Of a stretch of 64,000 nt of DNA, positions 24,176-43,452 are shown piece after piece (position 1 is the first letter of the stretch; every line of letters begins with the position of its first letter). The notes beneath the pieces are model-generated. The model worked only from the letters and a program-made list of their open reading frames with translations. It did no database searches and was not told where the DNA came from. Source of the DNA: Planctomycetia bacterium (lineage in GTDB: Bacteria; Planctomycetota; Planctomycetia; Pirellulales; Thermoguttaceae); contig JAUNSJ010000012.1 of NCBI GenBank assembly GCA_030539295.1, positions 1-64,000 on the forward strand. Direction: 5' to 3'. The position numbers and the translations under genes are program-made.

Positions 24176-27055
24176 TTATTCCGGGCGTTCGTCCTCTTCA
24201 AGCTTTTTTTCCGCCTTGGCAACAAGTTCGACCGCCCAAATGCGATTGGAATAGAGTGCCACAATCGCGCGACGTATGGCACGGGCCTGCTGCGGATTGA
24301 CCGAATCGAGAGAGTCCGCATACTCAAGTCGGCCTTCCAGAAGGCGAAATTGTGCGGACTTTGACTGTTGGTAATCCTGGTTGATTTGTTCCAGTTGACG
24401 CTTTGCGAGAATGACACACTGTCCGTAGATAGTGCGGTCGAAGGACTCTCTTCGTTCACGAACGAGATCGGTATGAGGGTCGGAATCGGAGTTCGACGGC
24501 GAACCCGCAGTCTCGGCTGTCAGAGGGCCACTTGTACCGGCGTCGGCTTCCTGTCCCGCCGGTTTCTCATCAACGTTGTGTTCCGGAATCAGAGTTTGAA
24601 GACGTTCGTCGGTTGAGAAGAGTTCAATAAAAGCCTTCAGTTTTGGAATTCCCGCTTCCGGGTCCGCTTTCGCCGTTCGTATGGCTTCAATATAAATCGC
24701 TTCGACGGGGTCGAGATTTCTCGTTCTTGTTTTGCGTTCGATGAGACGTTCAAGCCGGCGCTCGAGATTCCCCAATTCGAGTTCGCCGGAATAGTCGAGT
24801 ATTTTCACCGCGCGAACATCGTTGGGATAAAGAGACAGAAAGGCACGCATGTCTTTTTCGGCACTGCGAAGTGTACTCAGATAGTCGTCGGGATCGGCAT
24901 CCTGAATTTTTCGGTCGATCCGGTCATAGAGAGTATCGGCACTGGGACTGCGAAGGGAATAGACAACCGTAGCGCCGATGAGAATAGAGATTATGCAGAA
25001 GAGCCAAATTTTAAGAGAGACATACTTCGAGTGCGGCTCAAGCTCGTGCGAGAGTCGGCCCAAGTCTTCTTCCTTAACGGGGGTAAAGTGGGAGGTCTTC
25101 GTATAGCTGTCAGAAGGAACGGTGCCAGACTTTGAGAAGACACTTCCAAGCAGCGCAGGTTCAAGCCCTAACGAGGACCCGGACTGCGGGGGCACGTCCA
25201 GACTTGAGGTCGCCAGAGCTGAAGGACACGTTTCGGCGAGTCCCTCGGGCACGCTCTTTACCGCGTTCAACGGCTCGGGCTTCTGCCGCGAGGGTGAAAC
25301 AGGAGGGGTGGAATTCTTTTCAATAGAGACTTCCGACTTGTCCCGGTCGCCAGCTTCCGGCAGACTTTCTTTGTCCTGTTGCGATGTGTGCGTGTCAGGC
25401 AGGTCAGGGGCAGAATTTCCCAAAGCCCCTGTCCATTGCGTTGGCATTTCGGAAAGGGACGAAGTTCCGGCAGGACTCGGTACAGAGGGTGCGGGAGAGG
25501 ATTCCTTTTTCGACAGGGCCTCGGTCGCGACATCGAGAATATGATAAGTAGGCTCACTGGGGATACCGAAATCTGTTTTTTCCGGCGTGCTGAAAGCGGG
25601 AGTCCCGACAGACTTGATGATCGGCTTGGGAAGTGACTTGGGGCCGGACGGTTCACTCGAGACAACGAGCTGGGCGCCTGTATCCGCGGCAAAAGTGCTG
25701 GAAGAAATCGTCTCGGCCACATCGGTCCGCATGGTGTCCGGCAAGACACACGATATCCCGGTTATACTTGCCAGGTTGTATTCCGACTGTCCTTCCCGCT
25801 GATTAAGGATAATACTTTCGTGGTCGACTCCGCGGGGAGTACCGGCGGTCTGGCCTGTCTCCTCCAGAAAATCGTAACGACTGTTGTCTGACTGACCTAA
25901 ATGGAGCAGGGACCCCGGTTCGTTGCCACTAGCGCGCACACGATCCTGTAGGGGGTCGTCGAACAGGAAGCTGTCTTTGCGAGGGCCTGTAGAGGCTGAA
26001 TCCTTGTCCAGCGATTGATAATTCTGGGGATAGCGAAGAGGTACGGACTTGTTAAGCTCGAAAAGGATATCGCCATTAAGCGTGTTCTGACTCGTATCAA
26101 AGGAGGCACTGGCGGGCAGTGCTGCAACTTCGGGCATATTCGCAGCCGGAGACGCATTTTCGGCCAAGAGCGAAGGAGGAATAATTTTATTCGGGTTCTC
26201 CGGGTCGAGAAAGGGATTCGGAAACTGCTGATTCCCGAGCGCCAGGCGAATCGCTTCCAGACGGCGCCCGATAATACGAGCATCGTTGGGCCGTTTATCG
26301 GGCTGAACGCGAAGGAGTTCGAGGATGAGCATATCGAGAACAGAAGGAACTTCCGGCCGATCAAAGCGGACGGATTCCGGGGGCCCGAACTTGTACTTTT
26401 GCAAAATTTCAGCGAGTGACTTGGCCACGTACGGGGGACGTCTGGCAATAAGGGCATAGAGGAGCGAGCCTAGTGAATAGATGTCGGACTTGGGAGTAAG
26501 AGGGCCTGCTTGGGCCTGTTCCGGCGACATATATTCTATGGTGCCAATAACCATATTGGCGGTTGTCAGCCGGGAATCGCCAAAGAAATGAGCAATTCCG
26601 TAATCGGAAACCTTGACCTGTCCGTCACTTAAAATAATAATGTTGGCCGGTTTAATATCACGGTGGATAATACCGCGGTCGTGGGCGTGCTTTAACGCTT
26701 TACAGACTTCAATCCCGATATGAACCACTTCCTCCCAGGAGAAGAAGCGTCCTGCCTTGAGAAGATTTTGCAAACTGGGCCCGTCGACGAACTCCATGGC
26801 GTAATAGAGCATACCGTCTTCCTGTCCGAAACCGAAGAGACGGACAATGTTCGGGTGCCGGAGCCGTTTAAGAGTTTCAATTTCCGCTTCAAACCGGGTG
26901 CGCAGCTCCTGGTCTTCATCGACATTTGTCATGAGAACCTTAACGGCTACATGCTCATTCGTCTCTTCGTGCAGGGCTTCGTAGACGGCCCCCATCCCGC
27001 CACGTCCAATAACGCGAAGGATGCGAAATGGCCCCAATTGAGTTGGCTGTTCCAT
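24176..27055 (-). CDS. Membrane Hanks-type serine/threonine protein kinase
   Basis: Residues 7-275 form a complete kinase: glycine loop GRGGMGAVYEA, ATP lysine in VAVKV (39), catalytic HRDIKPANI (131-139), DYG (151-153) in place of the usual DFG, and GTIEYMSPEQ. A Ser/Pro-rich linker of about 400 residues leads to one transmembrane helix (about 679-700), then a coiled, charged extracytoplasmic domain with TPR-like helices (LRSAEKDMRAFLSLYPND). ATG 27055 is chosen since the kinase starts there and GGAGAG precedes it; 959 residues. It is last in the TPR-ExbB-ExbD-ExbD run. Extracytoplasmic sensing coupled to that energised complex is plausible but unproven. Confidence 0.93.
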   Translation of the reverse strand: MEQPTQLGPFRILRVIGRGGMGAVYEALHEETNEHVAVKVLMTNVDEDQELRTRFEAEIETLKRLRHPNIVRLFGFGQEDGMLYYAMEFVDGPSLQNLLKAGRFFSWEEVVHIGIEVCKALKHAHDRGIIHRDIKPANIIILSDGQVKVSDYGIAHFFGDSRLTTANMVIGTIEYMSPEQAQAGPLTPKSDIYSLGSLLYALIARRPPYVAKSLAEILQKYKFGPPESVRFDRPEVPSVLDMLILELLRVQPDKRPNDARIIGRRLEAIRLALGNQQFPNPFLDPENPNKIIPPSLLAENASPAANMPEVAALPASASFDTSQNTLNGDILFELNKSVPLRYPQNYQSLDKDSASTGPRKDSFLFDDPLQDRVRASGNEPGSLLHLGQSDNSRYDFLEETGQTAGTPRGVDHESIILNQREGQSEYNLASITGISCVLPDTMRTDVAETISSSTFAADTGAQLVVSSEPSGPKSLPKPIIKSVGTPAFSTPEKTDFGIPSEPTYHILDVATEALSKKESSPAPSVPSPAGTSSLSEMPTQWTGALGNSAPDLPDTHTSQQDKESLPEAGDRDKSEVSIEKNSTPPVSPSRQKPEPLNAVKSVPEGLAETCPSALATSSLDVPPQSGSSLGLEPALLGSVFSKSGTVPSDSYTKTSHFTPVKEEDLGRLSHELEPHSKYVSLKIWLFCIISILIGATVVYSLRSPSADTLYDRIDRKIQDADPDDYLSTLRSAEKDMRAFLSLYPNDVRAVKILDYSGELELGNLERRLERLIERKTRTRNLDPVEAIYIEAIRTAKADPEAGIPKLKAFIELFSTDERLQTLIPEHNVDEKPAGQEADAGTSGPLTAETAGSPSNSDSDPHTDLVRERRESFDRTIYGQCVILAKRQLEQINQDYQQSKSAQFRLLEGRLEYADSLDSVNPQQARAIRRAIVALYSNRIWAVELVAKAEKKLEEDERPE

Positions 27056-27145
27056 GACTACTCTCCGAATCTTTCTGTATCCGATTCCGAAACGGGTGCC
27101 CCGAAGGGAAACGAGGAGCCGCCTGGCCAATCGCCAGCGATCGAC

Positions 27146-27667
27146 TTACTCCCGAGGGGCGGCGAATTTTACCTTCTCAACCAATTTTATAACCTGATTC
27201 TCCTGATTGAGATATCCGGTCACGGCTGTTATCGCTTGCACGACATATTTATATCGCAATTGCTCGTCGCAATCCAGCTCGATTTCCAGGTCGTCGCGAA
27301 ACCGCGGGGTTGCCTGGCCCTGGACAGCCGACTGATAGTCCACGGGGTCGCCCTGCTGTATGTACTGAAAAACCGCCATACGCAGTCGGGTCATATCGAC
27401 GCCGAGGCCGGAGTCCCCGAACCAGATGCCGGTAAGGTTCCCATCGTTATCGGCACGAAGTCGCACCGTTACCGGAACAATCTCATCCAGGGACGGCAAT
27501 CGATTCGACTGGACCGTCTGCGGCATGCGGATATTGAAATCGCCTTCGACCTCCGGGGTTTTATACGTTATGACGAAGAAGGAGAGTAAGAGAAAGACAA
27601 CGTCGATCATCGACGTCATCTGTAACTTGACCTCCCCGCCTTTTCCGCCCAGTTTTCGAATACTCAT
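27146..27667 (-). CDS. ExbD/TolR-family protein (second copy)
   Basis: Single-pass inner-membrane component of an ExbB/ExbD or TolQ/TolR proton-driven motor. A basic N-terminus leads to the transmembrane helix with the essential aspartate (QMTSMIDVVFLLLSFF, Asp22), then a 130-residue periplasmic domain of ExbD type. ATG 27667 overlaps the stop of the other exbD gene by four bases (ATGA). The two ExbD paralogues differ in sequence, suggesting a heteromeric complex. Confidence 0.92.
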   Translation of the reverse strand: MSIRKLGGKGGEVKLQMTSMIDVVFLLLSFFVITYKTPEVEGDFNIRMPQTVQSNRLPSLDEIVPVTVRLRADNDGNLTGIWFGDSGLGVDMTRLRMAVFQYIQQGDPVDYQSAVQGQATPRFRDDLEIELDCDEQLRYKYVVQAITAVTGYLNQENQVIKLVEKVKFAAPRE

Positions 27668-28140
27668 TCCGTTTTCCCCTGCCTTGCACGAAGAACGTAA
27701 CTTTCTATGCCCTGCTCCTGGCATGCCATAATGAGTCGCTCAACGAATCCGGCGGTCACGTTTTCATCCGCTCGAATAACGAGAGTTACGTCTTTTGGCA
27801 TGGTGCGGCTCACGCCCTCCAGGACGCGCAGTTCCGAATTCAGCGCCTTGGAAAACGGCGCTCGCGTCGTCGGTACGCCCATGGGCATGCTGTCGAGATA
27901 GCATGTGTGGGTACCCAAAAGGACCTCATAGCCGGCCGTAACCTGAACAGTAAACAGGTCGGCAGAGGCGGATTCTGGAGGTTGGGCCAGTTCGCTCAGC
28001 GGCAACATAACCCGTTCGTCCTGTTCCGCCTGGGAAAAGTTGATGACCAGGGTAAAGAACGTTATGAGCAGGAAGACGATGTCGATCATCGGCGTCATGT
28101 TCAGTTCAGCAGGAGTCAGGGATAAAGTTACGCGTCGCAT
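27664..28140 (-). CDS. ExbD/TolR-family protein (first copy)
   Basis: 158 residues with the ExbD layout: short cytoplasmic N-terminus, helix with LNMTPMIDIVFLLITFF (Asp20 is the proton-pathway residue), then the periplasmic fold ending VTLVIRADENVTAG. ATG 28140 is preferred because the family begins there; AGAAG lies 8 nt before. It sits between exbB (69 bp upstream) and the second exbD (4-bp overlap). Confidence 0.92.
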   Translation of the reverse strand: MRRVTLSLTPAELNMTPMIDIVFLLITFFTLVINFSQAEQDERVMLPLSELAQPPESASADLFTVQVTAGYEVLLGTHTCYLDSMPMGVPTTRAPFSKALNSELRVLEGVSRTMPKDVTLVIRADENVTAGFVERLIMACQEQGIESYVLRARQGKTE

Positions 28141-28209
28141 ATCTTTGGCTTCTAAATGGTAACGATACGGCTCCCGCGTCACAAGGGCAGCAGGAGCCGA
28201 GACAAAACT

Positions 28210-29121
28210 TTACTGTTTCTTGCCAGGCATACCCCCGGCAATACGGGCAATCAGATTGTCACTGATAATACCGATTTCCAGGAGGTATCGAGCGAGGCGA
28301 TTTTTGAAAACGTCGTAAACGGCCAGTGAGGGCAAAGCAATAGCGAGCCCAACCATGGTCGTAAATAGAGCAGTAGCAATACCTTCTGCGAGTTTTTGCG
28401 GGCTGGGCGCGGCACCGCCGGAGGCAATAACCTGGAAGGCGTCGATCATACCCACGACCGTACCGAACAGCCCAACCATGGGCGCCAGATTCCCGATCAG
28501 GGCAAGATACCCGATCTGGTGCTCCAGTTTCATGGTCTCTTCCTGCGCGACATCCTGCATGGCCTGCCCCGCCTTTTCACCACCGCTGTGCGCTCGCGAA
28601 AGACCAACGGCCAATACTTTGCCAAGCATGGACTCGTCCGTAGCGGCCAGCTGATACGCATCCTGATATTTCTGCTGTTCCAGCAAGGCGTCGAACTGAC
28701 GCACAAGCTCTTCTGGTACAAGTGAGGAACGACGAATGGAAAAAATGTTCATGACCATCAAGGCGACCATGGTCATGGACAGAAAGAGAAAGACAGGCGT
28801 AAAGAACCAGCCCAGCGAGCGAATCATCCAGACGAGATAGTTGTCGTGTCGCGCGGTGGGCGTGCTCTCGGCAGGAGCTTTGGCCGCAGGCGTATCGGCG
28901 GGAAACGCGTCTGGCTCGGGCGCGGCAGGGGCATCGGCCGCAGGTTCCGCAGGCGCTTCCGTGGCCGTTTCCGCAGGCGGGGAACTAAAAAGGTCTTCTT
29001 CCTGCCCTGACAATGAGCCAACCGCAAGGGCCGCTGTCATTAGGACGACCAGACATGCCCAGCGACGAACCGTCATCTGACGTCGTCTTTCATTTAAAGT
29101 CCATGAAACGTTCTTCATCAT
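28210..29121 (-). CDS. MotA/TolQ/ExbB proton channel family protein
   Basis: Proton-channel subunit partnering the two ExbD proteins. A signal-like first helix (about 20-38) is followed by an Ala/Pro-rich stretch (40-90), a second helix (about 100-125), and the MotA_ExbB domain (about 130-290) with GNLAPMVGLFGTVVGMIDAF and TALFTTMVGLAIALP, the conserved channel helices. The N-terminal periplasmic extension is frequent in planctomycete homologues. ATG codons occur at 29121 and 29118; GGAAG precedes both. It follows the TPR gene by 47 bp. Confidence 0.92.
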   Translation of the reverse strand: MMKNVSWTLNERRRQMTVRRWACLVVLMTAALAVGSLSGQEEDLFSSPPAETATEAPAEPAADAPAAPEPDAFPADTPAAKAPAESTPTARHDNYLVWMIRSLGWFFTPVFLFLSMTMVALMVMNIFSIRRSSLVPEELVRQFDALLEQQKYQDAYQLAATDESMLGKVLAVGLSRAHSGGEKAGQAMQDVAQEETMKLEHQIGYLALIGNLAPMVGLFGTVVGMIDAFQVIASGGAAPSPQKLAEGIATALFTTMVGLAIALPSLAVYDVFKNRLARYLLEIGIISDNLIARIAGGMPGKKQ

Positions 29122-29168
29122 ATTCTTCCGCGTTGTTGTTCCGGATATGGGGTTAAATTTAAAGTGAG

Positions 29169-30227
29169 TTACAGGTTGATTTTATACTTATTCTGCAAGG
29201 TGTGCAAGGCTTCCTCGGCCCGGTCCTGACGTCCCTTGGCCGTCCAGAGCCGATACAGTTCACGCAGTGCACGACTGTGCTCCTGCCCGCAAGAGCTGTA
29301 CAAAAGGTCAACGTGTAAGTAGGCAAGCAGTGCGTCCTGATTCCGACCGGCCGCTTGCGATACGGCGCCTATTGTATTATATAAACGAGCGGCGAGCGAC
29401 ACATTGCGGAGTGGATTCTCGTCGATAATGCGTCGCAACAGGGACAGGGCATCGTCGAATTTTTCCTGACCGGCAAGGGCCTGGGCAAGTCCGATTCTCG
29501 CGAAATCTTTCGCTTCATTAACCAAAGGCGAATTCTCCTGCGCGAAGTCGATCACGGCCTGGAATGCCTGGGCGGCTTCCTCCCACTTTTGCGTGGCAAG
29601 AAGGATTTCCGCCGAAGCGGTCATTCCGCGGAGTTTAACGTCGGACCAGGGGGCGTCCGCGAGACGGTCAAAGAACCCTTTCGCCTGGTCGTTCCGGCCA
29701 AGAGCCAAAAGAATTCTCCCGGTCGTTTCATAGACGTCGAACAGGTGCCAGCTTGCGGCGTACTTCTTCTGAAAGGCGACCAACTCCTTACCGGCCGCCG
29801 TTAAGGGGTCCCGCTCGCCCAGGGCCAAGGCCGATTGCGCTATGCAGGCCGCTTTGAGGTAGTCAAGTTCGGCGAGAACCGGCTCAGTGAGCGAGGCACG
29901 GTCCTTTTCACTCTTCGAAAGGTTCTCCAACGCTTCGTCATAGCGCGCGGCCAAAAACATTGTTCGGGCTGTCGTCAGGTCGATCGGCTCGTTCTCATAT
30001 TGAAGCCAGAGAATCGTATTACACGGAACCCCTTGCTGCGTACCAGCTTGCGTTAGAGATACTTCCGTTGTGGAGACGGATTCTATCTTGCCGGTGAGGG
30101 TCTCTTCCGACGCCACACGATTCTCGTCGATAACGCGTATACGTATCATGTCTTCCGCCACAAGCCGCATCGGGGCAAGCAGACTCAGAACACACAACAA
30201 AGTTAACAGTAACGCAACGCGTTTCAT
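29169..30227 (-). CDS. Exported tetratricopeptide-repeat protein
   Basis: Signal peptide (MKRVALLLTLLCVLSLL to about residue 25), a small N-terminal beta region (IRIRVIDENRVASEE) and then about seven helical-pair repeats with TPR-like spacing (RYDEALENLSKSE, GRNDQAKGFFDRLAD, KWEEAAQAFQAVID, KFDDALSLLRRIID, GRNQDALLAYLHVD). Probably periplasmic, like the TPR protein YbgF/CpoB next to Tol systems. ATG 30227 is chosen for the signal peptide; an ATG at 30242 has an overlapping ribosome site. It heads the run of TPR, ExbB, ExbD, ExbD and kinase. Confidence 0.85.
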   Translation of the reverse strand: MKRVALLLTLLCVLSLLAPMRLVAEDMIRIRVIDENRVASEETLTGKIESVSTTEVSLTQAGTQQGVPCNTILWLQYENEPIDLTTARTMFLAARYDEALENLSKSEKDRASLTEPVLAELDYLKAACIAQSALALGERDPLTAAGKELVAFQKKYAASWHLFDVYETTGRILLALGRNDQAKGFFDRLADAPWSDVKLRGMTASAEILLATQKWEEAAQAFQAVIDFAQENSPLVNEAKDFARIGLAQALAGQEKFDDALSLLRRIIDENPLRNVSLAARLYNTIGAVSQAAGRNQDALLAYLHVDLLYSSCGQEHSRALRELYRLWTAKGRQDRAEEALHTLQNKYKINL

Positions 30228-30334
30228 AATTCTCTTTCGCATTTCCTTGTCAATTCCATGAACAGCCCATTCCCCGGTCAAAATCGCGCGGCATGAGTTC
30301 TCACAACCGTCATAAGTTCTCACAAGCGTTGCCC

Positions 30335-31102
30335 TTAACGCCAGTTAACCGGAATATTATGGGCAGCGAGATAATCCTTCATTTGCTTAATGGTAAAGGT
30401 GCCAAAATGGGCAATTGAGGCAACCAGTAAAGCATCGGCATGGCCATCTGTAACGCCGAGTCGCAAATGCTCCAGACTTCCGGCACCCCCGGAGGCGATA
30501 ACAGGTATCTTAACAGCATCCGCTATGGCGCGTGTCATGGGCAAATCGTAGCCGGTCTGCTTACCGTCGGTGTCCATACTTGTTGGCAAAATGGCGCCGG
30601 CGCCAAGCGATTCCACGCGTTTCGCCCAAGCGACCGCGTCAAGGCCGGCTCCTTCAGTCCCGCCCCGGACGACAACTTCGTACCCGCTCGGGAGCGAGAG
30701 AGACTGACGCGTGTCGATTGCCACGGTTATCCGGTCGGAACCGAATCGTTTTGCGGCCTCTTCGACGAGTTCAGGGCGACGAACGGCGGCACTATTCATG
30801 GAAAGTCGGCTCACGCCCAAGTCGAGCATCTCTTGTATGTCGTCGCAGGTGCGTATGCCGCCGCCTACCGTTAATGGAATGGAAATAGCGGCCACGGTTC
30901 GCTTTACGGCGTCGATGAGCGTTTTACGCTCTTCAACGGTCGCGGTAATGTCCAAGAAGACGAGTTCATCGGCCCCGGCTTCATCGTAGGCCCGGGCGTT
31001 TTCGGCAGGGTCGCCTATCTCTTTTAAATTAACAAAATTCACACCCTTGACTAATTTGCCATTTTTAACATCCAAACAAGGGATAATTCGACGATAATTC
31101 AT
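30335..31102 (-). CDS. hisF: Imidazole glycerol phosphate synthase cyclase subunit HisF
   Basis: Forms imidazole glycerol phosphate and AICAR from PRFAR and ammonia in histidine synthesis, with HisH. A complete (beta/alpha)8 barrel of 255 residues with both catalytic aspartates in place: Asp11 (IPCLDVKNG) and Asp130 (VAIDTRQ), plus phosphate loops VGGGIR and ASGGAG. Start ATG 31102 has GGAGTG upstream. No other his gene is present, so the pathway genes are dispersed here. It lies 107 bp upstream of the TPR gene on the same strand. Confidence 0.97.
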   Translation of the reverse strand: MNYRRIIPCLDVKNGKLVKGVNFVNLKEIGDPAENARAYDEAGADELVFLDITATVEERKTLIDAVKRTVAAISIPLTVGGGIRTCDDIQEMLDLGVSRLSMNSAAVRRPELVEEAAKRFGSDRITVAIDTRQSLSLPSGYEVVVRGGTEGAGLDAVAWAKRVESLGAGAILPTSMDTDGKQTGYDLPMTRAIADAVKIPVIASGGAGSLEHLRLGVTDGHADALLVASIAHFGTFTIKQMKDYLAAHNIPVNWR

Positions 31103-31426: not shown

Positions 31427-31477
31427 GATTAAATAGTTGATTAAATAGTTGACTTTTGCCGGGAAAAGATGTATAAT
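31427..31477 (+). promoter_or_regulatory. Promoter of the hydrogenase operon with tandem 12-bp repeat
   Basis: GATTAAATAGTT occurs twice head to tail (31427-31438 and 31439-31450). The second copy runs into TTGACT (31449-31454), which is 17 bp from TATAAT (31472-31477): a near-consensus housekeeping promoter about 60 bp before the HydS start. The repeats are placed like an activator or repressor site covering the -35 box. Confidence 0.75.
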
Positions 31478-31538
31478 AAGTTAATCGATAATTTTTTACT
31501 GGTATACGATAAATACACCCCTGCGAGGCATTTCTGTC

Positions 31539-33272
31539 ATGAATCATTCACGATACGGCAACAATGGAAATCCTGAAGCCATCTATCCGATATACACGGA
31601 AGCGACAGAATGCCACGATTGTTATAAATGTGTGCGTCAGTGCCCCGTCAAGGCGATACGGATAGAAAATGGAGTGGCGTCGGTTCTGTCGAACCGGTGC
31701 ATTGCGTGCGGTCACTGTGTCCAGGTCTGCCCAAGCCGGGCGAAGCGAGTGCGAAATGATCTTTCCAGGGCAGTCGATTTACTTGCGGGTGAGTCCAGGG
31801 TTTATGTCTCGCTGGCGCCAAGCTGGCGAGGTCTTTTCCCGGAATGGTCGGCGAGTTCCCTTGTGACGGCGTTAAAGACGTTGGGTGTGACAGAGGTCAG
31901 CGAGACGGCCTTGGGGGCACAGGAAGTGTCCGCGGCTGTGGCGGAACAAATCTCGCAGGAGGAGAAGGGCCTTTTTATCTCCAGTGCGTGCCCTGCCGTT
32001 GTCGATTACATTCGCCGGTATCATCCGTGGACCGCCAATCGAATTGTATCCCTGGCGTCCCCTGCCCTGACTCATTGCGCTATGTTGAGGAAACTTTTTG
32101 GCGAGGACATACGAGTTATTTTTATCGGGCCGTGCGTGGCGAAGAAGAACGAAGCGGATCGGCACCCGGAACTGCTGGACTGTGCCTTAACGTTCGAGGA
32201 ATTGCGTATTTTGCTCGACGACCAGAATCTTGTACCGTCGAAGTTCGCGGGCAGTCAGGAGCATTTTATCCCGGAAACGGCGGCCGAAGGCGCCATATAT
32301 CCGATCGAAGGGGGTATGCTTGAGACGATACGACGTTGTGACGTTGATTCGAAAGTGTTATTGCAATCGATCAGCGGAATTCCTTTGCTGGCGGAATCGC
32401 TGGATCATTTGCGTGAAATGCGTAGTGAGCGACCGATTTTTCTGGAGGCGTTGGCGTGTCCGGGTGGTTGTATAAATGGGCCGTTCGCGACGCGTGCCTC
32501 GCACCTGGCGGCAACGACAGGCATTCTTGAACAGGCGAACTATCGAGAGCGTGAAAAACGCTCGCCTGTGGTTCGGGTCGAGATGGAATATGAGCCACTA
32601 CGAGTTGAGGAGGAGGTGCCGGACGAGGCGAGTGTGAGAAAAGCTCTGTTGAGTTTGGGTAAGACGAGTCCTGCGGATGAGCTGAATTGCAGTGGTTGCG
32701 GCTATGAGTCGTGTCGGGAATTCGCGAAGGCATTGGTTCGGGGGGATGCGGAGCCTGAGCAGTGCGTTTCCCACATGCGGCGTGTGGCCACGCGTAAGGC
32801 GAATGCACTGTTGCGCTGTATTCCGGCCGGAATCGCGATCGTTGACAGTAATCTTCTTATTGTCGAATCGAACGAAGCGTTCAGTCGACTGTTTGGTGAG
32901 GAGATTATTCAGTTGTATCAGGATGTGCCTGGTCTGGAAGGCGCGGATATAACGACGCTGCTGCCCTGTGGCCCGCTCTTTGAGGCGGCCTTACGTCAGG
33001 GGGAAGATATCCGCCGGGAACATTATCCGGTCGGCGACCAATTACTGGACTTGACAATATTCACGATTGACCCCGGGAAGACAATCGGAGTTGTTGTTCA
33101 GGACGTAACCGAGACAGAACTTGGTCGGGAGCAGATAGCCGAGCGTGCCGATGAGGTTATTTCGCGTAATATCGCAATTGTGCAAGAGATAGCCAGTCGG
33201 TTAGGGGAACATATGGCGGATACGGAAATACTTTTGGACTCGATATCGCGAGGGTACAGGAAAAAGAAATGA
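31539..33272 (+). CDS. hydS: HydS-like sensory [FeFe]-hydrogenase with PAS domain
   Basis: Putative H2 sensor. Residues 24-64 hold two 4Fe-4S sites (CHDCYKCVRQC, CIACGHCVQVC). The H-cluster domain follows with L1 SSACP (148-152), L2 GPCVAK (197-202) and L3 CPGGC (307-311): all four cluster cysteines are kept, but the proton-transfer cysteine of the catalytic TSCCP motif is alanine. A further Fe-S motif (Cys384, 387, 392, 409) and a PAS-like domain (about 425-525) come next, then a short helical tail. This order is that of group C sensory hydrogenases. Signal output probably goes to the phosphatase encoded next, whose start overlaps by 4 bp. Confidence 0.9.
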   Translation: MNHSRYGNNGNPEAIYPIYTEATECHDCYKCVRQCPVKAIRIENGVASVLSNRCIACGHCVQVCPSRAKRVRNDLSRAVDLLAGESRVYVSLAPSWRGLFPEWSASSLVTALKTLGVTEVSETALGAQEVSAAVAEQISQEEKGLFISSACPAVVDYIRRYHPWTANRIVSLASPALTHCAMLRKLFGEDIRVIFIGPCVAKKNEADRHPELLDCALTFEELRILLDDQNLVPSKFAGSQEHFIPETAAEGAIYPIEGGMLETIRRCDVDSKVLLQSISGIPLLAESLDHLREMRSERPIFLEALACPGGCINGPFATRASHLAATTGILEQANYREREKRSPVVRVEMEYEPLRVEEEVPDEASVRKALLSLGKTSPADELNCSGCGYESCREFAKALVRGDAEPEQCVSHMRRVATRKANALLRCIPAGIAIVDSNLLIVESNEAFSRLFGEEIIQLYQDVPGLEGADITTLLPCGPLFEAALRQGEDIRREHYPVGDQLLDLTIFTIDPGKTIGVVVQDVTETELGREQIAERADEVISRNIAIVQEIASRLGEHMADTEILLDSISRGYRKKK

Positions 33273-34447
33273 ACGAAAGCCCATTGTTTATCGATGTCGA
33301 CAGTTATCAACGTCGCAAGCATACGGAACATGTGTGCGGGGACGCCTTTGTCTCGAAGCGAATGAGTGCCGAAGGACGACTGGTGGCCGTGCTTTCCGAT
33401 GGTCTTGGCAGTGGAATAAAGGCGAATATTCTTGCGCAAATGGCGGCGACGATGGCTGCGCGTTTTACGGAGCAGGGGCGTGATCCATTGCGTTCGGCGG
33501 AAATAATTATGGACGCGCTTCCTGTGTGCAAGATACGCAAAATAAGTTACGCGACCTTTTCCATAATCGATTGCTCCCTTTCGGGGCCTGTTCGCATTGT
33601 GGAAGAAGGGAATCCGGAATTTATTTTAATACGTAATGGAAGTGCCGTGAATATTAAGAAAGAGATACTCGTTTCCGGGAAGTGGCCGGACCGACATATA
33701 CAGGTCTCGCAGTTTACTCTTATTCCGGATGACAGGATAATTTTCTGCTCCGATGGAGTGACCCAGGCGGGGCTTGGGAGCGATACGTGGCCGCTGGGTT
33801 GGCGCCGAGAGGGACTCATTACGTTTGTTTGTAATCTGATAGAAGTCATGCCGGAAATTTCCAGTCGGAATCTGGCCCACGATATTGTTGAGGAAGCGGT
33901 GCGTAAGGAACCTGATTTGCTTTCGCACGACGACATATCAGCGGCAGTTTTTCATTTTCATCGACCGCGCAGATTGCTTGTTTGGACGGGTCCACCGTTT
34001 TATAAAGAGCGGGACCACGAATACGCATTGCAATTTTCGCAATTTCGTGGTAAGAAGGTGATCAGTGGTGGGACGACGGCCAATATCGCATCGCGTGAAC
34101 TAAGGCGTGAAATATCAATGGTGTCGCCGCAGCGAGGGAGTACGGTCCCCCAGCTTTCGCGTATGGGTGGTGTTGATTTGGTCACGGAAGGAGTACTGAC
34201 ATTGGCGAAAATGTTGGAATATTTGGAAGAGGAGAAGAAGCCTGGTGTGCGGGATCCGGCGCTGGAGTTGGCCGACCTCCTGCTGGAAAGTGACACGATA
34301 GAGTTTATGGTCGGAACGCGTATAAATGAGGCGCATCTCGACCCGCTACTGCCGGTGACACTGGGCTTTCGCCGTAATTTGGTGGAGCGTACGGCACGTG
34401 TTCTGCGTGAAAAATACCTTAAAGAAGTCACCATTGTTTACATTTAA
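33269..34447 (+). CDS. SpoIIE-type PP2C phosphatase with unknown C-terminal domain
   Basis: The first 230 residues are a PP2C/SpoIIE serine phosphatase: VLSDGLGSGIKA (42-51) and FCSDGVTQAGLG carry the metal-binding aspartates, and HDDISAAV is the third motif. Residues about 230-392 form a second domain (VISGGTTANIASREL, GGVDLVTEGVLTL) that I recognise only as a conserved companion of hydrogenase-linked phosphatases. The ATG overlaps the HydS stop (ATGA), so the two proteins are made together. Likely role: dephosphorylate a serine/threonine on a regulator when HydS senses H2; the target is unknown. Confidence 0.85.
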   Translation: MNESPLFIDVDSYQRRKHTEHVCGDAFVSKRMSAEGRLVAVLSDGLGSGIKANILAQMAATMAARFTEQGRDPLRSAEIIMDALPVCKIRKISYATFSIIDCSLSGPVRIVEEGNPEFILIRNGSAVNIKKEILVSGKWPDRHIQVSQFTLIPDDRIIFCSDGVTQAGLGSDTWPLGWRREGLITFVCNLIEVMPEISSRNLAHDIVEEAVRKEPDLLSHDDISAAVFHFHRPRRLLVWTGPPFYKERDHEYALQFSQFRGKKVISGGTTANIASRELRREISMVSPQRGSTVPQLSRMGGVDLVTEGVLTLAKMLEYLEEEKKPGVRDPALELADLLLESDTIEFMVGTRINEAHLDPLLPVTLGFRRNLVERTARVLREKYLKEVTIVYI

Positions 34448-34515
34448 TTTAAAAATGGTTTTGCGTACGGGGGACGCGACCGGACAATACAATTTAAGAT
34501 CACAAAGGAAACGTT

Positions 34516-34794
34516 ATGAACGAATCGGCAAAGAAATGTCAGGTTAAGATATGTCAGGGAACAGCCTGCTTTATTATGGGCGCGTCGCAGCTTCAGGATC
34601 TGGCGGAAGACCTTCCGGAAGAGTATCGAAGTTTTTTTGAGATTGTGTGCGTGCCCTGTCTGGAACTGTGTAACAAGCGTCAGGAGCTGGGGCAGATGCC
34701 CTACGTAACTGTCGACGGACAGCCTTACGCCGATATGACGCGAGAGAAACTTTTGCGTATTCTGCAACTGAAAGCGGAGTGTATGCTGCGCTAA
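34516..34794 (+). CDS. Thioredoxin-fold [2Fe-2S] ferredoxin (NuoE/HydC-like)
   Basis: A 92-residue protein equal to the C-terminal half of NuoE: VKICQGTACFIMGA supplies the first cysteine pair and CVPCLELCN the second, the 2Fe-2S ligand pattern. Such small proteins accompany hydrogenases as electron carriers or subunits. It lies 68 bp after the phosphatase and 53 bp before the second hydrogenase, within one operon. No NuoF-like flavoprotein partner is present. Confidence 0.87.
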   Translation: MNESAKKCQVKICQGTACFIMGASQLQDLAEDLPEEYRSFFEIVCVPCLELCNKRQELGQMPYVTVDGQPYADMTREKLLRILQLKAECMLR

Positions 34795-34847
34795 TTACTT
34801 TAATCTTTTTGCAAATAAATAATGATTTAATGAACGGAGAGACCACT

Positions 34848-36428
34848 ATGAATATATCGAGTGTTTCGCGTGAGAAGCCGGAGACAGAGCGTCACAACAA
34901 TGCGCAGTATCTCCGTCGAGAAGTACTCATACGGGTAGCCAGAGCCTATTTGCAGGGTGACCTTGAGGACCAGGTCAATCGCATTCCGTTCGCGATGAGA
35001 CCGAAGAAATCGGACGCGCCTTTTCGCTGCTGTATTTATAAAGAGCGAGCCATTTTGCGATTGCGAACCTTGGGTGCGTTGGGCTTTCCTGTGGAGGGGG
35101 ATGACGATTTTACGCCACTTTCAGAATACGCGAATCAGGCATTGCGGCGCAGCGGGCCCAACGAACCGGTTTTGACTGTTATTGATATAGCGTGTAAAGG
35201 ATGTGTATCTTCCCGATATTTTGTAACGGAATTATGTCAGGGGTGTCTGGCGAGGCCGTGCGCGGTAAATTGCAATTTTGGCGCTGTGTCCCTGGTGAAT
35301 GGTCGCGCTGTGATTGATCCATCGCGCTGCAAGAATTGCGGACGATGCATGACCTTGTGTCCTTATCAGGCGATAGTCAAGATACACGTTCCTTGTGAGG
35401 AGGCCTGTCCGGTCAACGCCATCCATAAAGGGGACGAAGGGCATGCCATTATTGATTTTGATAAGTGCACCAGCTGTGGTCGATGTATGCGTGCGTGTCC
35501 CTTTGGCGCGATTATGGAACGAAGTCAGATTATCGATATTTTGCGTGTTTTAGCGGCGTCGAGAAAGGACGGAAGAAAAGTTGTCGCTCTGGTCGCCCCG
35601 GCGATCGTCGGGCAGTTTCCCGTTCCGTTTGAAAAAATTGCCGGCGCCCTGATTGCCTTGGGGTTCGCCGATGTTGTCCCGGTTGCCGCAGGCGCCGATC
35701 TGACAACTTTGCATGAATCGGCCGAGTTTAGGACGCGTATGAAAAGTGGCAAGGGTTTTATGACGACGTCCTGCTGCCCTGCGTATGTTCAAACGGTGCG
35801 TAAACATATTCCAGAACTGCTTCCGTTCGTTTCGGATACGCCAACGCCCATGCATTACGCGGCGGAACTTGCCAGGAAGAAATATCCTGATTCGGTTACT
35901 GTTTTCATAGGCCCTTGTGTTGCCAAGCGTTCGGAAGGAATACACGATGAATTGATTGATTATGTCATGACGTTCGAAGAGACCGGCGCTCTCTTCGTTG
36001 CCGCGGAGATTGAGCCGGCGTCTGTGCCGGCTTGTGAAACGGAGTATAAGGCGTCGTGGCAAGGTCACGGCTTCGCGGTAACAGGAGGAGTTGCATCGGC
36101 TGTGGAGAGTCTTGTCAGACATACAGCGCCGGACTCGGAAGAGGACTCCCTTCTGGTAACACCGATTTCGGTCAATGGTCTCTCGCCTGCGGGGATAAAG
36201 CAACTGAAGAGCTTTGCTTGTGAGGGTTGCCCTGGCAATCTCGTTGAGGTTATGGCGTGTGAAGGCGGTTGTATTGGCGGCGCCGGAACAGTGGGTAATC
36301 CCAAAATTGCGGCCCGGGAAATCAAGTGCCTTGTTGCGAAATCCGCTTCCCTTGAGGACCTGACCAAACAGGACGTAGAATTCAGTCCGTGCGTGGTGCC
36401 CGAAAGAATTGAAACGGAAGACACTTAA
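34848..36428 (+). CDS. [FeFe]-hydrogenase, group B-like
   Basis: 526 residues. The N-terminus (1-110) is a conserved non-Fe-S region; then come many cysteines: CKGC (117-120), CQGCLARPC (130-138), CKNCGRCMTLC (161-171), CEEAC (183-187) and CTSCGRCMRAC (207-217), for three or so 4Fe-4S clusters. The catalytic domain has TSCCP (307-311), PCVAK (356-360) and CEGGC (471-475), so proton-transfer and cluster cysteines are all intact. This is expected to produce or consume H2 with ferredoxin. ATG 34848 follows GGAGAG; the longer frame is not used. HydEFG maturases are not in the window. Confidence 0.92.
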   Translation: MNISSVSREKPETERHNNAQYLRREVLIRVARAYLQGDLEDQVNRIPFAMRPKKSDAPFRCCIYKERAILRLRTLGALGFPVEGDDDFTPLSEYANQALRRSGPNEPVLTVIDIACKGCVSSRYFVTELCQGCLARPCAVNCNFGAVSLVNGRAVIDPSRCKNCGRCMTLCPYQAIVKIHVPCEEACPVNAIHKGDEGHAIIDFDKCTSCGRCMRACPFGAIMERSQIIDILRVLAASRKDGRKVVALVAPAIVGQFPVPFEKIAGALIALGFADVVPVAAGADLTTLHESAEFRTRMKSGKGFMTTSCCPAYVQTVRKHIPELLPFVSDTPTPMHYAAELARKKYPDSVTVFIGPCVAKRSEGIHDELIDYVMTFEETGALFVAAEIEPASVPACETEYKASWQGHGFAVTGGVASAVESLVRHTAPDSEEDSLLVTPISVNGLSPAGIKQLKSFACEGCPGNLVEVMACEGGCIGGAGTVGNPKIAAREIKCLVAKSASLEDLTKQDVEFSPCVVPERIETEDT

Positions 36429-36581: not shown

Positions 36582-37856
36582 TTATTCCGGGTCCCCTTCT
36601 TTTGGGCTGAAAACACGATTGCGATGCCGGAATTCGGACATGGTCTGGTTGTATTTCTTTTTAAAGACCTTGCCCAGATAGCCTTCATTATCAAAACCAC
36701 ACAATGGGGCAATATCGGCAATACTCAGGTCGGATTCCAGGAGCAGAGCACATGCACGCTGAAGCTGCAGGCGATGAATCTCCTGCAAGACGGTTCGATG
36801 GAGTGATTTTTTGAATCTCATTTCCAACTGGCGTCTTGAAATTCCCAAAAATTTCACAACGTCGGCCACACCGATGTATTGGTCGGCGTGCAGGCGAATG
36901 TAGTCCAGGGCTTCCGCGACCCACTTATCGTTGACGCACAGGGAGTCGGACGACGTTCTGGCAATAATACAGCCGGCATTGTATGTTCGTTCGCGGTCAT
37001 CGAGAACAGAGCCATTCTGATGAGCGGTAATCATTTTTTTCAGTAATTCGGCGGCGAGGTACCCTGCCCTTTTGGTCTCCATCTGGATACTGGACAGGGG
37101 CGGATAGGTCGTACGGCACAGTGGTTCGTCATTATCGCAACCGAGGACAGCCACCTGATGAGGGACAGAAATACCTTCGGAGATACAGGCGTCGAGGACC
37201 TGCCGTGCCCGTACGTCCCGAGCAGCCATGACGGCCACCGGCTTGGGTAGATGGCGAAGCCAACGGCAGAGGCGTCGACTTTCCAGTTCCCGGTTTTCCC
37301 GCTCACGTGAGGTCAGGCCCGGATAGACTTCACATTCGAAGCCCGCGTGCTGAATCGTTTCGATAAAACCGTTGCGACGCCCGATGGACCAATTGAATTC
37401 TTTAACGTCACCCACCCAGGCAAAAGATCGAAACTGGCGCTCGAGAAAATGCTCTGCCCCGAGCACACCAACATTATAGGTCTGGCAATGAACTTCGCCC
37501 AGGAGATGCCGGTCCCACGTTTTGAATAGGGGCATGAATTCGTCGCTCGGGTCGATCAGGACGGACGGCACGCGTGCCGAATGAACGATGTTGGCGCTCT
37601 CGTGACTTTGCAAAAAGGCGATAATACCGAACGGCTCTTTGGAATTTTTCATGCGAACGAACTTTTGTTCGCCATACCAACCTTCAATAATATGGAGACG
37701 CCAAGGGCCGTAAAGGCGTTCAAATTCGATTACGCCGTCGAGCATATCGCGGCATACTTTTAGAGACGTCTGGAGAACAACAGCGATCTGAGGGAGACTC
37801 TTGTGAAGGAGTTCGAGTTTTGGCGCGGTTGTTTTTGCGATTTGCTGCTTGTACAT
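36582..37856 (-). CDS. XylR-like AraC-family sugar regulator
   Basis: A 424-residue regulator with a LacI/periplasmic-binding-like sensor (about 22-300: GIIAFLQS, VGVLGAEHFL, VAVLGCDNDEPLC, PPLSSIQMETKRAGYLAAELL) and a C-terminal AraC double helix-turn-helix (about 325-420: VADVVKFLGISRRQLEMRF, LSIADIAPLCGFDNEGYLGKVFKKKY). This is the E. coli XylR layout, normally a sugar-responsive activator. It is transcribed away from the DUF1559, lipoprotein and GH5-like cassette and is the obvious regulator of it. Its leader has a palindrome next to the start codon and no Shine-Dalgarno sequence. Confidence 0.92.
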   Translation of the reverse strand: MYKQQIAKTTAPKLELLHKSLPQIAVVLQTSLKVCRDMLDGVIEFERLYGPWRLHIIEGWYGEQKFVRMKNSKEPFGIIAFLQSHESANIVHSARVPSVLIDPSDEFMPLFKTWDRHLLGEVHCQTYNVGVLGAEHFLERQFRSFAWVGDVKEFNWSIGRRNGFIETIQHAGFECEVYPGLTSRERENRELESRRLCRWLRHLPKPVAVMAARDVRARQVLDACISEGISVPHQVAVLGCDNDEPLCRTTYPPLSSIQMETKRAGYLAAELLKKMITAHQNGSVLDDRERTYNAGCIIARTSSDSLCVNDKWVAEALDYIRLHADQYIGVADVVKFLGISRRQLEMRFKKSLHRTVLQEIHRLQLQRACALLLESDLSIADIAPLCGFDNEGYLGKVFKKKYNQTMSEFRHRNRVFSPKEGDPE

Positions 37857-41043: not shown

Positions 41044-43452
41044 TTAGGAGGCGGTAAGTGGGTCGACGGATTTTTCTTTTGTCATAAAGATTTCATTACA
41101 GGCTTCATTGAACCAGACATGGGTCATAAAACCGCGAATGAGTAATATGCCGCGACCGGTGGGAATGGAAACGCGGTCCTCTTCGCGTGGGTCGGGGACC
41201 TGGCCTTCAACGAATCCTTCTCCCTCATCACGTATGGAGACAGAAATGGCCGTATTGGAGATACAGACGCCGATTCGCACTTTTTTGGAGGCGTCGAGCA
41301 TATTGCCGTGCTCCATGGCATTGTGAATTCCTTCGTTCAGGGCCAGTTCAACGGCGAAAATATCGCGGTCATTCCACTGCCGGTTGCGCAGTTCTTCGGT
41401 CACCTCTTCGATGAAGGGAGTCTCCTTGCCGTACATGGTATCAATGGCGACGTAGCGAGTCCAGCAGAGGTCGGTCTCGTCGGTCCGCTTGAGCATGAGC
41501 ATGGTCATATCGTCGGTTGGAACAGCGCCCTGAAAATTACACACGGCCTGTTGTATGTAGCCGATTAACTTTTCCGGGGGCGTTTTTGCAAGGTAAGAGA
41601 GAAGTTTTTTGAGACGTTTTTGGCCGAACTGCTCGCCGTCAGGGGCGGTCGCGTCGGTTACGCCGTCGGTGTACAGGAAAAGGGTTTCGCCCGGATTCAG
41701 ATGAATTTCGCAGGTCTCATATTTTATTCCACTCATAATGCCCATCACGCAATTTTCGGCATAAGGAAGGAATTTGACTTCCCCGTTCTCCTTGAGCAGG
41801 GCCGGCTGGTTGTGGCCTGCGTTGCAGTAGCGAACGAGTCCGGTCTCCGGATTATAAAAGGCGAGGAACAGGGTCACGAACATGTTCTTCTTATTCCGCT
41901 TGCGGAGTACCCAGTTGACCTCGGAGACGACGTTACCAGGGGTGGCCTCTTTTCCCGCGGCCTGTCGGATGAGCGTTGATGTGGCGACCATGACCATGGC
42001 GGCGGCAATTCCCTTGCCGGAAACGTCACCGATAACAAGCCCAATCTGGTTTTCCGTGACGCGCCAGAAGTCGAGGAAGTCGCCGGCGACGTACTTTGCG
42101 GGAATCAAATCGCCGGAAATAATATATCCTTTATCAGGAAAGAAGCGAGTGCGGTTCGCAGGGAGAAATGTGCGCTGCAATTCCTCTCCAATGAGCAATT
42201 CCTGTTCCAGATGAGAGCGGGTAATGGTTTCGTGCACCTCGCTTTCGATGTGCTTTTGCAAGTTGGAAACCATCGTATTATAGGAGCGAACCAGAGCGCC
42301 GACGCTACCGCCGCGATGCTCGTAGCGTTCGGGCACGGTACAGTTCAAATTGCCATTGGCGACCTGACTGGCAACGCGTGTCATGGCCTCGATGGGCGAG
42401 GTGGATCGCAAGAGGAGCACGAAAATAACAACGCAAATGCCAAAAGCACAGAGAAAAGCGGCGGCAATGAGGAATTGGAGACTTCGTCGGGCCTCGCCCA
42501 GCAAGCTGGCTTCCTGAAATTTACCAACGACGGTCCAGCAGTTGTCATCCTGCGTTTTGGCAAAGGCATAAAGAGATTTCCCATAGCCCGCTTCGTCCAG
42601 GAGTCCTCTAAGTTCGTAGGTGCCAAGTGAGTCGGCAATGGCCTTATCAATAATGGGATAGTAATTTTCAAGCTTCTTTTGAGCGGCGATCGCGTATAAA
42701 CTGTAGTGGGGCCAGTCGTTGGAAGAAGAGTCGTAGAGCAGAGTCCCACTTTCCGAGAGCACGAAAATATCGCTGCCTTGACTGTGCCGCTGCTGATATT
42801 GCTGCAAGAGCGACAAGTCGAAGAGGTCCTTAACGCGGACCAGACAGAGGACAACTCCGGCAAATTCACCGTTCCAGAAGAAAGGACAGCCGTAAGAAAT
42901 AATCCTGTTGCCGGTAACATGACCTTTGAAGGGGTCGGTCCAGGTACCGCGCATACTCAATTTTGGCGTCAGAAAGGCGTCGCGGGTTTCGTAATAATCG
43001 CCAATATTGTCGACCCCGTAGAGCGTGTTGTCGCTCTTGCGGTAGATGCCGGGTGCGTAATGATTTGGAACCGTCGTTAAGGGTGCCAAATCGGAGTCCG
43101 TAACGAAAGTATAGTCGGGATATTCACCGTTTCGAACCTTGGAGAGGAAATTGGGGTCGTAGGCAACGACGAGCGCCTGAACGCGTTCCGACTCCTCCAT
43201 CGTTTGCCGAAAGAGCGCCATCACGTTAAAGTCTTCTTTTAAGGTGAGAAGACGTGCGGAGACATCAACATTACGCGACAGAAGATTGGCATTCTGTACC
43301 ATGGAGTTGGCCAGCTCGTAAATTTCACCGCGGCACGTGGCAATGGCATCCTCCTTATACATCTTCATCTGCGACTCGTAGTAGAAGTAGGAAAGGGGGG
43401 TAAAAATAACGAACAGGGGCAGGAAAACGGTCAGGAAAATGCGTAATCTCAT
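41044..43452 (-). CDS. Cache-HAMP-PP2C(SpoIIE/RsbU)-HATPase signalling protein
   Basis: 802-residue membrane protein. A first helix (5-25), a Cache-type extracellular domain (about 30-330, with YRKSDNTLYGVDNIGDYYETRDAF in part), a second helix (about 335-360), HAMP (to about 420), a SpoIIE phosphatase (about 440-650: VAGDFLDFW, VIGDVSGKGIAAAMVMV, FLYTDGVTDA, TDDMTMLML) and a C-terminal HATPase (about 670-790: NEGIHNAMEHGN, RDEGEGF, GRGILLIRG). It thus joins an RsbU-like phosphatase to an RsbW-like anti-sigma kinase in one chain. Its start overlaps the binding protein's stop by 4 bp, so the binding protein likely feeds it signal. No anti-sigma antagonist gene is adjacent. Confidence 0.92.
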   Translation of the reverse strand: MRLRIFLTVFLPLFVIFTPLSYFYYESQMKMYKEDAIATCRGEIYELANSMVQNANLLSRNVDVSARLLTLKEDFNVMALFRQTMEESERVQALVVAYDPNFLSKVRNGEYPDYTFVTDSDLAPLTTVPNHYAPGIYRKSDNTLYGVDNIGDYYETRDAFLTPKLSMRGTWTDPFKGHVTGNRIISYGCPFFWNGEFAGVVLCLVRVKDLFDLSLLQQYQQRHSQGSDIFVLSESGTLLYDSSSNDWPHYSLYAIAAQKKLENYYPIIDKAIADSLGTYELRGLLDEAGYGKSLYAFAKTQDDNCWTVVGKFQEASLLGEARRSLQFLIAAAFLCAFGICVVIFVLLLRSTSPIEAMTRVASQVANGNLNCTVPERYEHRGGSVGALVRSYNTMVSNLQKHIESEVHETITRSHLEQELLIGEELQRTFLPANRTRFFPDKGYIISGDLIPAKYVAGDFLDFWRVTENQIGLVIGDVSGKGIAAAMVMVATSTLIRQAAGKEATPGNVVSEVNWVLRKRNKKNMFVTLFLAFYNPETGLVRYCNAGHNQPALLKENGEVKFLPYAENCVMGIMSGIKYETCEIHLNPGETLFLYTDGVTDATAPDGEQFGQKRLKKLLSYLAKTPPEKLIGYIQQAVCNFQGAVPTDDMTMLMLKRTDETDLCWTRYVAIDTMYGKETPFIEEVTEELRNRQWNDRDIFAVELALNEGIHNAMEHGNMLDASKKVRIGVCISNTAISVSIRDEGEGFVEGQVPDPREEDRVSIPTGRGILLIRGFMTHVWFNEACNEIFMTKEKSVDPLTAS

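Follow-up and report, generated by a model that had tools for sequence, protein, structure and literature searches.

A putative sensory hydrogenase, a PP2C phosphatase and a group B1 [FeFe]-hydrogenase encoded in one planctomycete operon

Can one [FeFe]-hydrogenase serve as a sensor that sets the output of another encoded beside it? The question is raised by a locus in a Planctomycetia bacterium of the family Thermoguttaceae (assembly GCA_030539295.1; 4.13 Mb, 88 contigs, 88% complete). The window analysed here is the whole 64,000-nucleotide stretch at positions 1 to 64,000 of contig JAUNSJ010000012.1, and the locus occupies positions 31539-36428 of it. An original prediction, made from sequence alone, described an operon for an H2 sensor, a phosphatase, a ferredoxin and a group B-like hydrogenase. 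Four co-directional plus-strand open reading frames (ORFs) with the corresponding profile matches bear out this description: they form a single operon encoding HydS, a SpoIIE/PP2C phosphatase, a thioredoxin-like [2Fe-2S] protein and a group B1 [FeFe]-hydrogenase. A sensor hydrogenase, a phosphatase and a group B hydrogenase, in this order on one strand, define hfs-type operons, a widespread and already known type of which the window holds a further instance. HydS-PP2C signalling in response to H2 probably controls the output of the group B1 enzyme.

The four gene products

The genes and their main parts are as follows.

31539..33272, + strand: HydS, putative sensory [FeFe]-hydrogenase, group C3-like, 577 aa (Pfam/NCBIfam, 57-homologue alignment, AlphaFold model, PDB matches)
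31611..31730, + strand: two N-terminal [4Fe-4S] motifs of HydS, Cys 25, 28, 31, 35 and 54, 57, 60, 64 (two Fer4 motifs; invariant in 57/57 homologues)
31797..32483, + strand: HydS H-domain, with Cys151, 199, 307 and 311 retained (PF02906, residue counts)
31986-31988, + strand: Ala150 of HydS, in place of the proton-transfer cysteine (residue counts in the homologue alignment)
32682..32768, + strand: linker FeS cluster domain of HydS, PF04060, Cys 384, 387, 392, 409 (42.6 bits; alignment)
32805..33107, + strand: PAS domain of HydS, followed by a long C-terminal helix (PAS_8 in 48/57 homologues; model topology)
33269..34447, + strand: SpoIIE-type PP2C serine/threonine phosphatase (PF07228, AlphaFold model, PDB matches)
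33971-34444, + strand: conserved C-terminal alpha/beta domain of the phosphatase, residues 235-392 (52-homologue alignment, model)
34516..34794, + strand: thioredoxin-like [2Fe-2S] ferredoxin, 92 aa (PF01257, cysteine pattern)
34848..36428, + strand: group B1 monomeric [FeFe]-hydrogenase, 526 aa, ORF open from GTG 34779 (TIGR04105, motifs, start choice)

The H-domain of HydS (Fe_hyd_lg_C, 144.7 bits) contains the motifs SSAC151P, GPC199VAKK and LAC307PGGC311. All four H-cluster cysteines are present, as originally predicted, and together with Lys202/203 they are invariant across the 57 homologues, as are the Fe-S cysteines, eight of them N-terminal and four in the linker. The alanine predicted at the proton-transfer position is Ala150, which corresponds to C299 of CpI; the homologues have alanine (48), cysteine (8) or histidine (1) here. 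At the positions of CpI M353 and M497 the homologues carry glycine and mostly leucine, respectively (G197 and L305 in the window). Alterations of these three second-sphere residues have been described for sensory enzymes (PMC10055695). The PAS domain that had also been predicted is recognised in most homologues, while the window protein on its own falls below the PAS_8 threshold (18.3 bits against a cutoff of 21.8). Its AlphaFold model (pLDDT, the predicted local distance difference test score, 91.0) nevertheless shows a PAS-like domain of two strands, helices and three strands, followed by a single helix of ~50 residues. In a structure search the H-domain matched hydrogenases of known structure (Z 34.6 against CbA5H across 341 residues; root-mean-square deviation, rmsd, 2.6); larger domains dominated the match lists, which say little about the PAS part or the phosphatase C-terminal domain. 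HydS is therefore classed as a putative sensory [FeFe]-hydrogenase, similar to group C3, on four features: the H-cluster cysteines, the altered second-sphere residues, the C-terminal PAS domain and the linked Ser/Thr phosphatase gene.

The start codon of the phosphatase gene overlaps the hydS stop codon as ATGA, consistent with the predicted translational coupling. Its product matches SpoIIE (PF07228, 52.8 bits) and is modelled with a pLDDT of 92.8. Residues 4-233 superimpose on SpoIIE (5ucg; Z 23.1, 213 residues, rmsd 2.8) and on a Sphaerobacter PP2C (3pu9; Z 24.3), and the Asp/Gly metal-binding motifs (D25, D44, D162, D221 and D222) are invariant in 52 of 52 homologues. In the C-terminal domain the same alignment shows a GPP motif that never varies and a GGTT motif that almost never does; a Pfam scan of residues 235-392 returned 0 matches.

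The ferredoxin match to PF01257 is weak but above cutoff (28.2 against 24.8 bits), and the protein has a CX4C...CX3C cysteine pattern. The last gene encodes a hydrogenase scoring 533.8 bits against TIGR04105 (cutoff 450), identifying it as a monomeric group B1 [FeFe]-hydrogenase. Its catalytic motifs, TSCCP (35766), GPCVAK (35910) and MACEGGC (36252), are intact, in agreement with the original prediction. The mechanically called start is GTG 34779; ATG 34848, which is preceded by GGAG and yields a protein of 526 aa, is the likelier start.

Conservation, H2 signalling and its alternatives

The original prediction had named a lack of maturases in the genome as grounds for rejecting it. HydG (497 bits, contig C72), HydF (519 bits, C27) and HydE (288 bits, C51) were all found above curated cutoffs. 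Six H-domain proteins are encoded in this genome, two of them in the window. A second HydS-PP2C pair lies on contig C9 (L027, 10273-17773), where it is followed by bifurcating-type HydC, HydB and HydA; this HydS is 48% identical to that of the window, and the two phosphatases are homologous.

The module is conserved well beyond this genome. A contig scan yielded 80 HydS loci, and neighbourhoods were counted for the 76 HydS genes, window included, with downstream room. A PP2C gene directly follows hydS in 69 of the 76, with an overlap or a gap of <=15 bp in 61. The order HydS, PP2C, group B hydrogenase occurs in 39, the window among them, and other neighbourhoods continue to HydCBA. Since dozens of unrelated contigs show the same order on one strand, the arrangement is not a product of chance. 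It was found in at least nine phyla of anaerobes, its hosts including Gastranaerophilales/Melainabacteria, Spirochaetota, Bacteroidota, Pseudomonadota, Desulfovibrio, Margulisiibacteriota, Lentisphaerota and Bacillota. TIGR04105 scores above cutoff in 9 of 392 Planctomycetota genomes. HydS adjoins the group B gene in seven of the eight besides the window's, and in the eighth (G379) the contig ends first; three of the seven are single-contig assemblies, and in one planctomycete genome (G279) gene calling placed an antisense ORF in the phosphatase slot. These seven genomes rule out a planctomycete-only or first-in-phylum reading. The pairing of group C and group B enzymes, which the original prediction noted as known from Firmicutes and recognised here in a planctomycete, is thus not confined to Firmicutes with one planctomycete exception.

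In the mechanism we propose, H2 would be bound or slowly turned over at the H-cluster of HydS. The resulting redox change, relayed by the Fe-S clusters, would reach the PAS domain and the long helix behind it and alter the activity of the co-translated PP2C. The phosphatase would then act on a phosphoprotein encoded elsewhere than in the operon; the precedents of SpoIIE and RsbU make a STAS anti-anti-sigma protein, or a partner of that sort, the most likely substrate. Pairs of STAS and HATPase_c_2 (anti-sigma-type ATPase) genes are present in the genome on contigs C83 and C16. Dephosphorylation would adjust transcription of the operon and probably also of other fermentation genes. As the output enzyme, the group B1 hydrogenase would re-oxidise ferredoxin reduced by pyruvate:ferredoxin oxidoreductase (PFOR) and release H2, and a non-bifurcating enzyme of this kind would be useful under high H2. 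PFOR is encoded on contig C16 (1766 bits), and group B enzymes of Bacteroides re-oxidise PFOR ferredoxin (PMC12578642). An AdhE-like 895-aa frame lies on contig C83.

Published work supports such signalling and suggests its sign. HydDB names group C3 "phosphatase-linked (putative)", and its members are proposed to sense H2 and to regulate processes through serine/threonine phosphatases (PMC5037454). In Thermoanaerobacterium, loss of hfsB, the gene for the PAS hydrogenase, leads to higher hydrogenase activity and more adhE transcript; deletions of hfsC or hfsD do not raise adhE, and the high-ethanol effect requires intact hfsC and hfsD (PMC5707799). To judge from these mutants, the PAS hydrogenase holds back an output dependent on hfsC and hfsD (PMC5707799, PMC11837493). 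A Ruminococcus albus cluster of a group C hydrogenase, a phosphatase, a ferredoxin-only hydrogenase and an alcohol dehydrogenase falls 111-fold in an H2-removing co-culture (PMC6776011). From the hfs deletions and the R. albus switch we infer that HydS restrains PP2C and that H2 relieves this restraint, giving more ferredoxin hydrogenase output. Several points weigh against the proposal. The operon holds no STAS protein, anti-sigma kinase or transcription factor; reviews still call the sensory role of group C putative (PMC8924675); and the HydS of Thermotoga maritima is active despite an alanine at the C299 position (PMC10055695). Because that alanine leaves the T. maritima enzyme active, HydS may have a slow catalytic role.

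It is conceivable that HydS senses the ferredoxin or redox state, not H2: its Fe-S clusters would accept ferredoxin electrons, the altered H-cluster would tune the potential or vent electrons, and PAS-PP2C would report over-reduction. The strict conservation of all twelve N-terminal and linker Fe-S cysteines is in keeping with this, as are the loss of the proton-transfer cysteine in most homologues, the unusually positive potential of the [2Fe] subcluster in T. maritima HydS (TmHydS; PMC10055695) and the presence beside many HydS modules of Rex, an NADH/NAD sensor. A pure redox sensor, however, would not need the H-cluster cysteines and Lys202/203 that every homologue retains, and expression of the R. 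albus cluster tracks H2 (PMC6776011). We consider redox sensing unlikely.

More improbable still is a non-sensory HydS that partners the group B enzyme through slow catalysis or electron sharing, the phosphatase serving something else. TmHydS does have measurable activity despite its alanine (PMC10055695), and the HydS and group B genes share one operon. Yet such a partner would not explain the PAS domain, the near-obligate PP2C neighbour (69/76) or the second HydS-PP2C pair of this genome, which is linked to HydCBA instead, and the hfsB deletion increases hydrogenase activity where a decrease would be expected (PMC5707799). It is hardly credible that a genuine operon has fallen silent or begun to decay in this lineage: its absence from the corresponding site of a genus-mate and its patchy occurrence in the phylum (9/392 genomes) fit such a fate, but the reading frames and catalytic motifs are intact, the promoter match is strong and the maturases have been retained. 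H2-responsive control by HydS and PP2C is accordingly the explanation we prefer.

Surroundings and history of the operon

Upstream and flanking features are listed below.

31449..31477, + strand: sigma-70-like promoter, TTGACT-17 bp-TATAAT (consensus scan, 11/12 positions matched)
31484..31491, no strand assigned: ATCGATAA element directly 3' of the -10 box (post hoc lead only)
30335..31102, - strand: HisF, left flank, divergent, outside the operon (PF00977; syntenic in G001 and G003)
36582..37856, - strand: periplasmic-binding-protein-like/AraC (XylR-type) regulator, right flank, convergent (Peripla_BP_3 + HTH_18)

The operon stands alone, since HisF is divergent on its left and the XylR-type regulator convergent on its right; the regulator was excluded as an operon member on account of this orientation. 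Beyond HisF, at 24176-30323 on the minus strand, are consecutive genes for a Ser/Thr kinase, two ExbD-like proteins, a TolQ-like protein and a TPR protein, syntenic in genus-mates G001 and G003. A minus-strand gene at 41044-43452 encodes a Cache-HAMP-SpoIIE-HATPase_c_2 protein, with phosphatase and anti-sigma-type kinase domains on one chain. The genome contains a Rex gene (contig C27), and a search for a Rex operator upstream of the operons gave no Rex box (best match 9/14 positions, equalled or exceeded by 165 of 200 shuffles for the window).

HydCBA also make up a third hydrogenase operon, which begins 1.5 kb beyond the window end (contig C79, 65509-69911; L026, 3509-7911); a response regulator receiver gene and a RibBA-type gene come after it. 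Contig C17 (L029, 9748-11223) encodes an [FeFe]-hydrogenase to which a small-subunit domain is fused and which is possibly exported, given its twin-arginine-like N-terminus (TRREVITAGLG).

The 8-mer ATCGATAA/TTATCGAT was noticed post hoc upstream of three hydrogenase operons in this genome and of the HydS operons of G001 and G022 (window 31484-31491; L026 3194; L027 9881; L030 9474 and 9553; L036 12093); about 20 further sites occur within the ~370 kb examined. A doubtful extension of our proposal is that the cell has two insulated H2-sensing channels, in which HydS-PP2C pairs of different ancestry would act on the group B enzyme and on the bifurcating-type HydCBA, converging at the shared ATCGATAA and selecting the enzyme by H2 level. 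The C-terminal domain of PP2C would then be a dedicated interface to HydS or to the target.

Phylogenies of both hydrogenases had been suggested as a check in the original prediction. The window hydrogenase is sister to a Gastranaerophilales-rich clade (support 96/83), and its vertical inheritance in one clade with family members G001 and G020 was rejected (approximately unbiased test, p=1.16e-5). For HydS, by contrast, a common clade of family members was not rejected (p=0.071). In a tree built by a quick method the window HydS pairs with that of G022, of the same family, and groups with one more planctomycete (L053) and a Gastranaerophilales set; the B-linked HydS of G001 and G020 fall elsewhere, as does the C9 paralogue. 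Genus-mate G001 preserves the left flank (kinase-ExbD-ExbD-TolQ-TPR-HisF), and no hydrogenase genes were seen beyond its HisF at the syntenic site; the G003 contig ends ~0.9 kb past HisF, and G002 and others are rearranged here. Because the hydrogenases of the window and of the genus-mate do not cluster together, and the genus-mate lacks the operon at this site, the operon looks laterally acquired. Lateral gain, or gain with differential loss, fits best.

Comparison with known systems

That the module is so conserved across phyla, and stays linked to the enzyme probably under its control, speaks well on comparative grounds for the sensor-phosphatase idea in a field where H2 sensing by [FeFe]-hydrogenases is still called putative. 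Genomes with two paired modules offer a natural test of specificity. Anaerobic Thermoguttaceae would gain fermentative H2 production with likely H2 feedback; recent digester work mentions hydrogenases of this family in broad terms only (PMC11929135). The presence of two sensor pairs in a single genome, along with the evidence of transfer, gives the locus a modest interest of its own.

The closest counterpart is hfsABCD of Thermoanaerobacterium saccharolyticum, a single operon that encodes, in the same order, the PAS sensor hydrogenase HfsB, the serine phosphatase HfsC and the group B ferredoxin hydrogenase HfsD (PMC5707799, PMC11837493, PMC8924675). It differs in its first gene product, HfsA, described as aligning poorly with known proteins, while in the window a gene for a small 2Fe-2S protein separates those of the phosphatase and the hydrogenase. 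The likeness is one of gene order and described domains, Bacillota HydS from same-order loci being ~29-31% identical to the window HydS. The hydS/hydA2 cluster of R. albus 7 likewise unites a PAS-containing group C hydrogenase, a Ser/Thr phosphatase and a ferredoxin-only hydrogenase in one H2-regulated cluster, but its ferredoxin-only enzyme is called group A1 and AdhE is encoded inside the cluster (PMC6776011), whereas the window enzyme is B1 and the AdhE-like gene is on another contig. AdhE and Rex often adjoin HydS modules in relatives. An arrangement that echoes the R. albus cluster is seen in rumen Gastranaerophilales-type genomes, where AdhE (~880 aa) and Rex lie upstream of HydS modules (L057, L048 and, similarly, L050, L052 and L103; domains checked in L057 only).

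Group C3 of HydDB, compared by description, has the same sensor-type H-domain adjoining a serine/threonine phosphatase (PMC5037454), and no difference was found. T. maritima HydS shares the H-cluster cysteines, the alanine at the CpI C299 position, the PAS domain and an operon with another hydrogenase (PMC10055695); at the M497 position it has Ser267 in place of Leu305, and the enzyme in the window operon is of group B. The C9 paralogue from the same genome (L027) is linked to a trimeric HydCBA instead of a group B enzyme, and its HydS occupies a separate branch of the tree.

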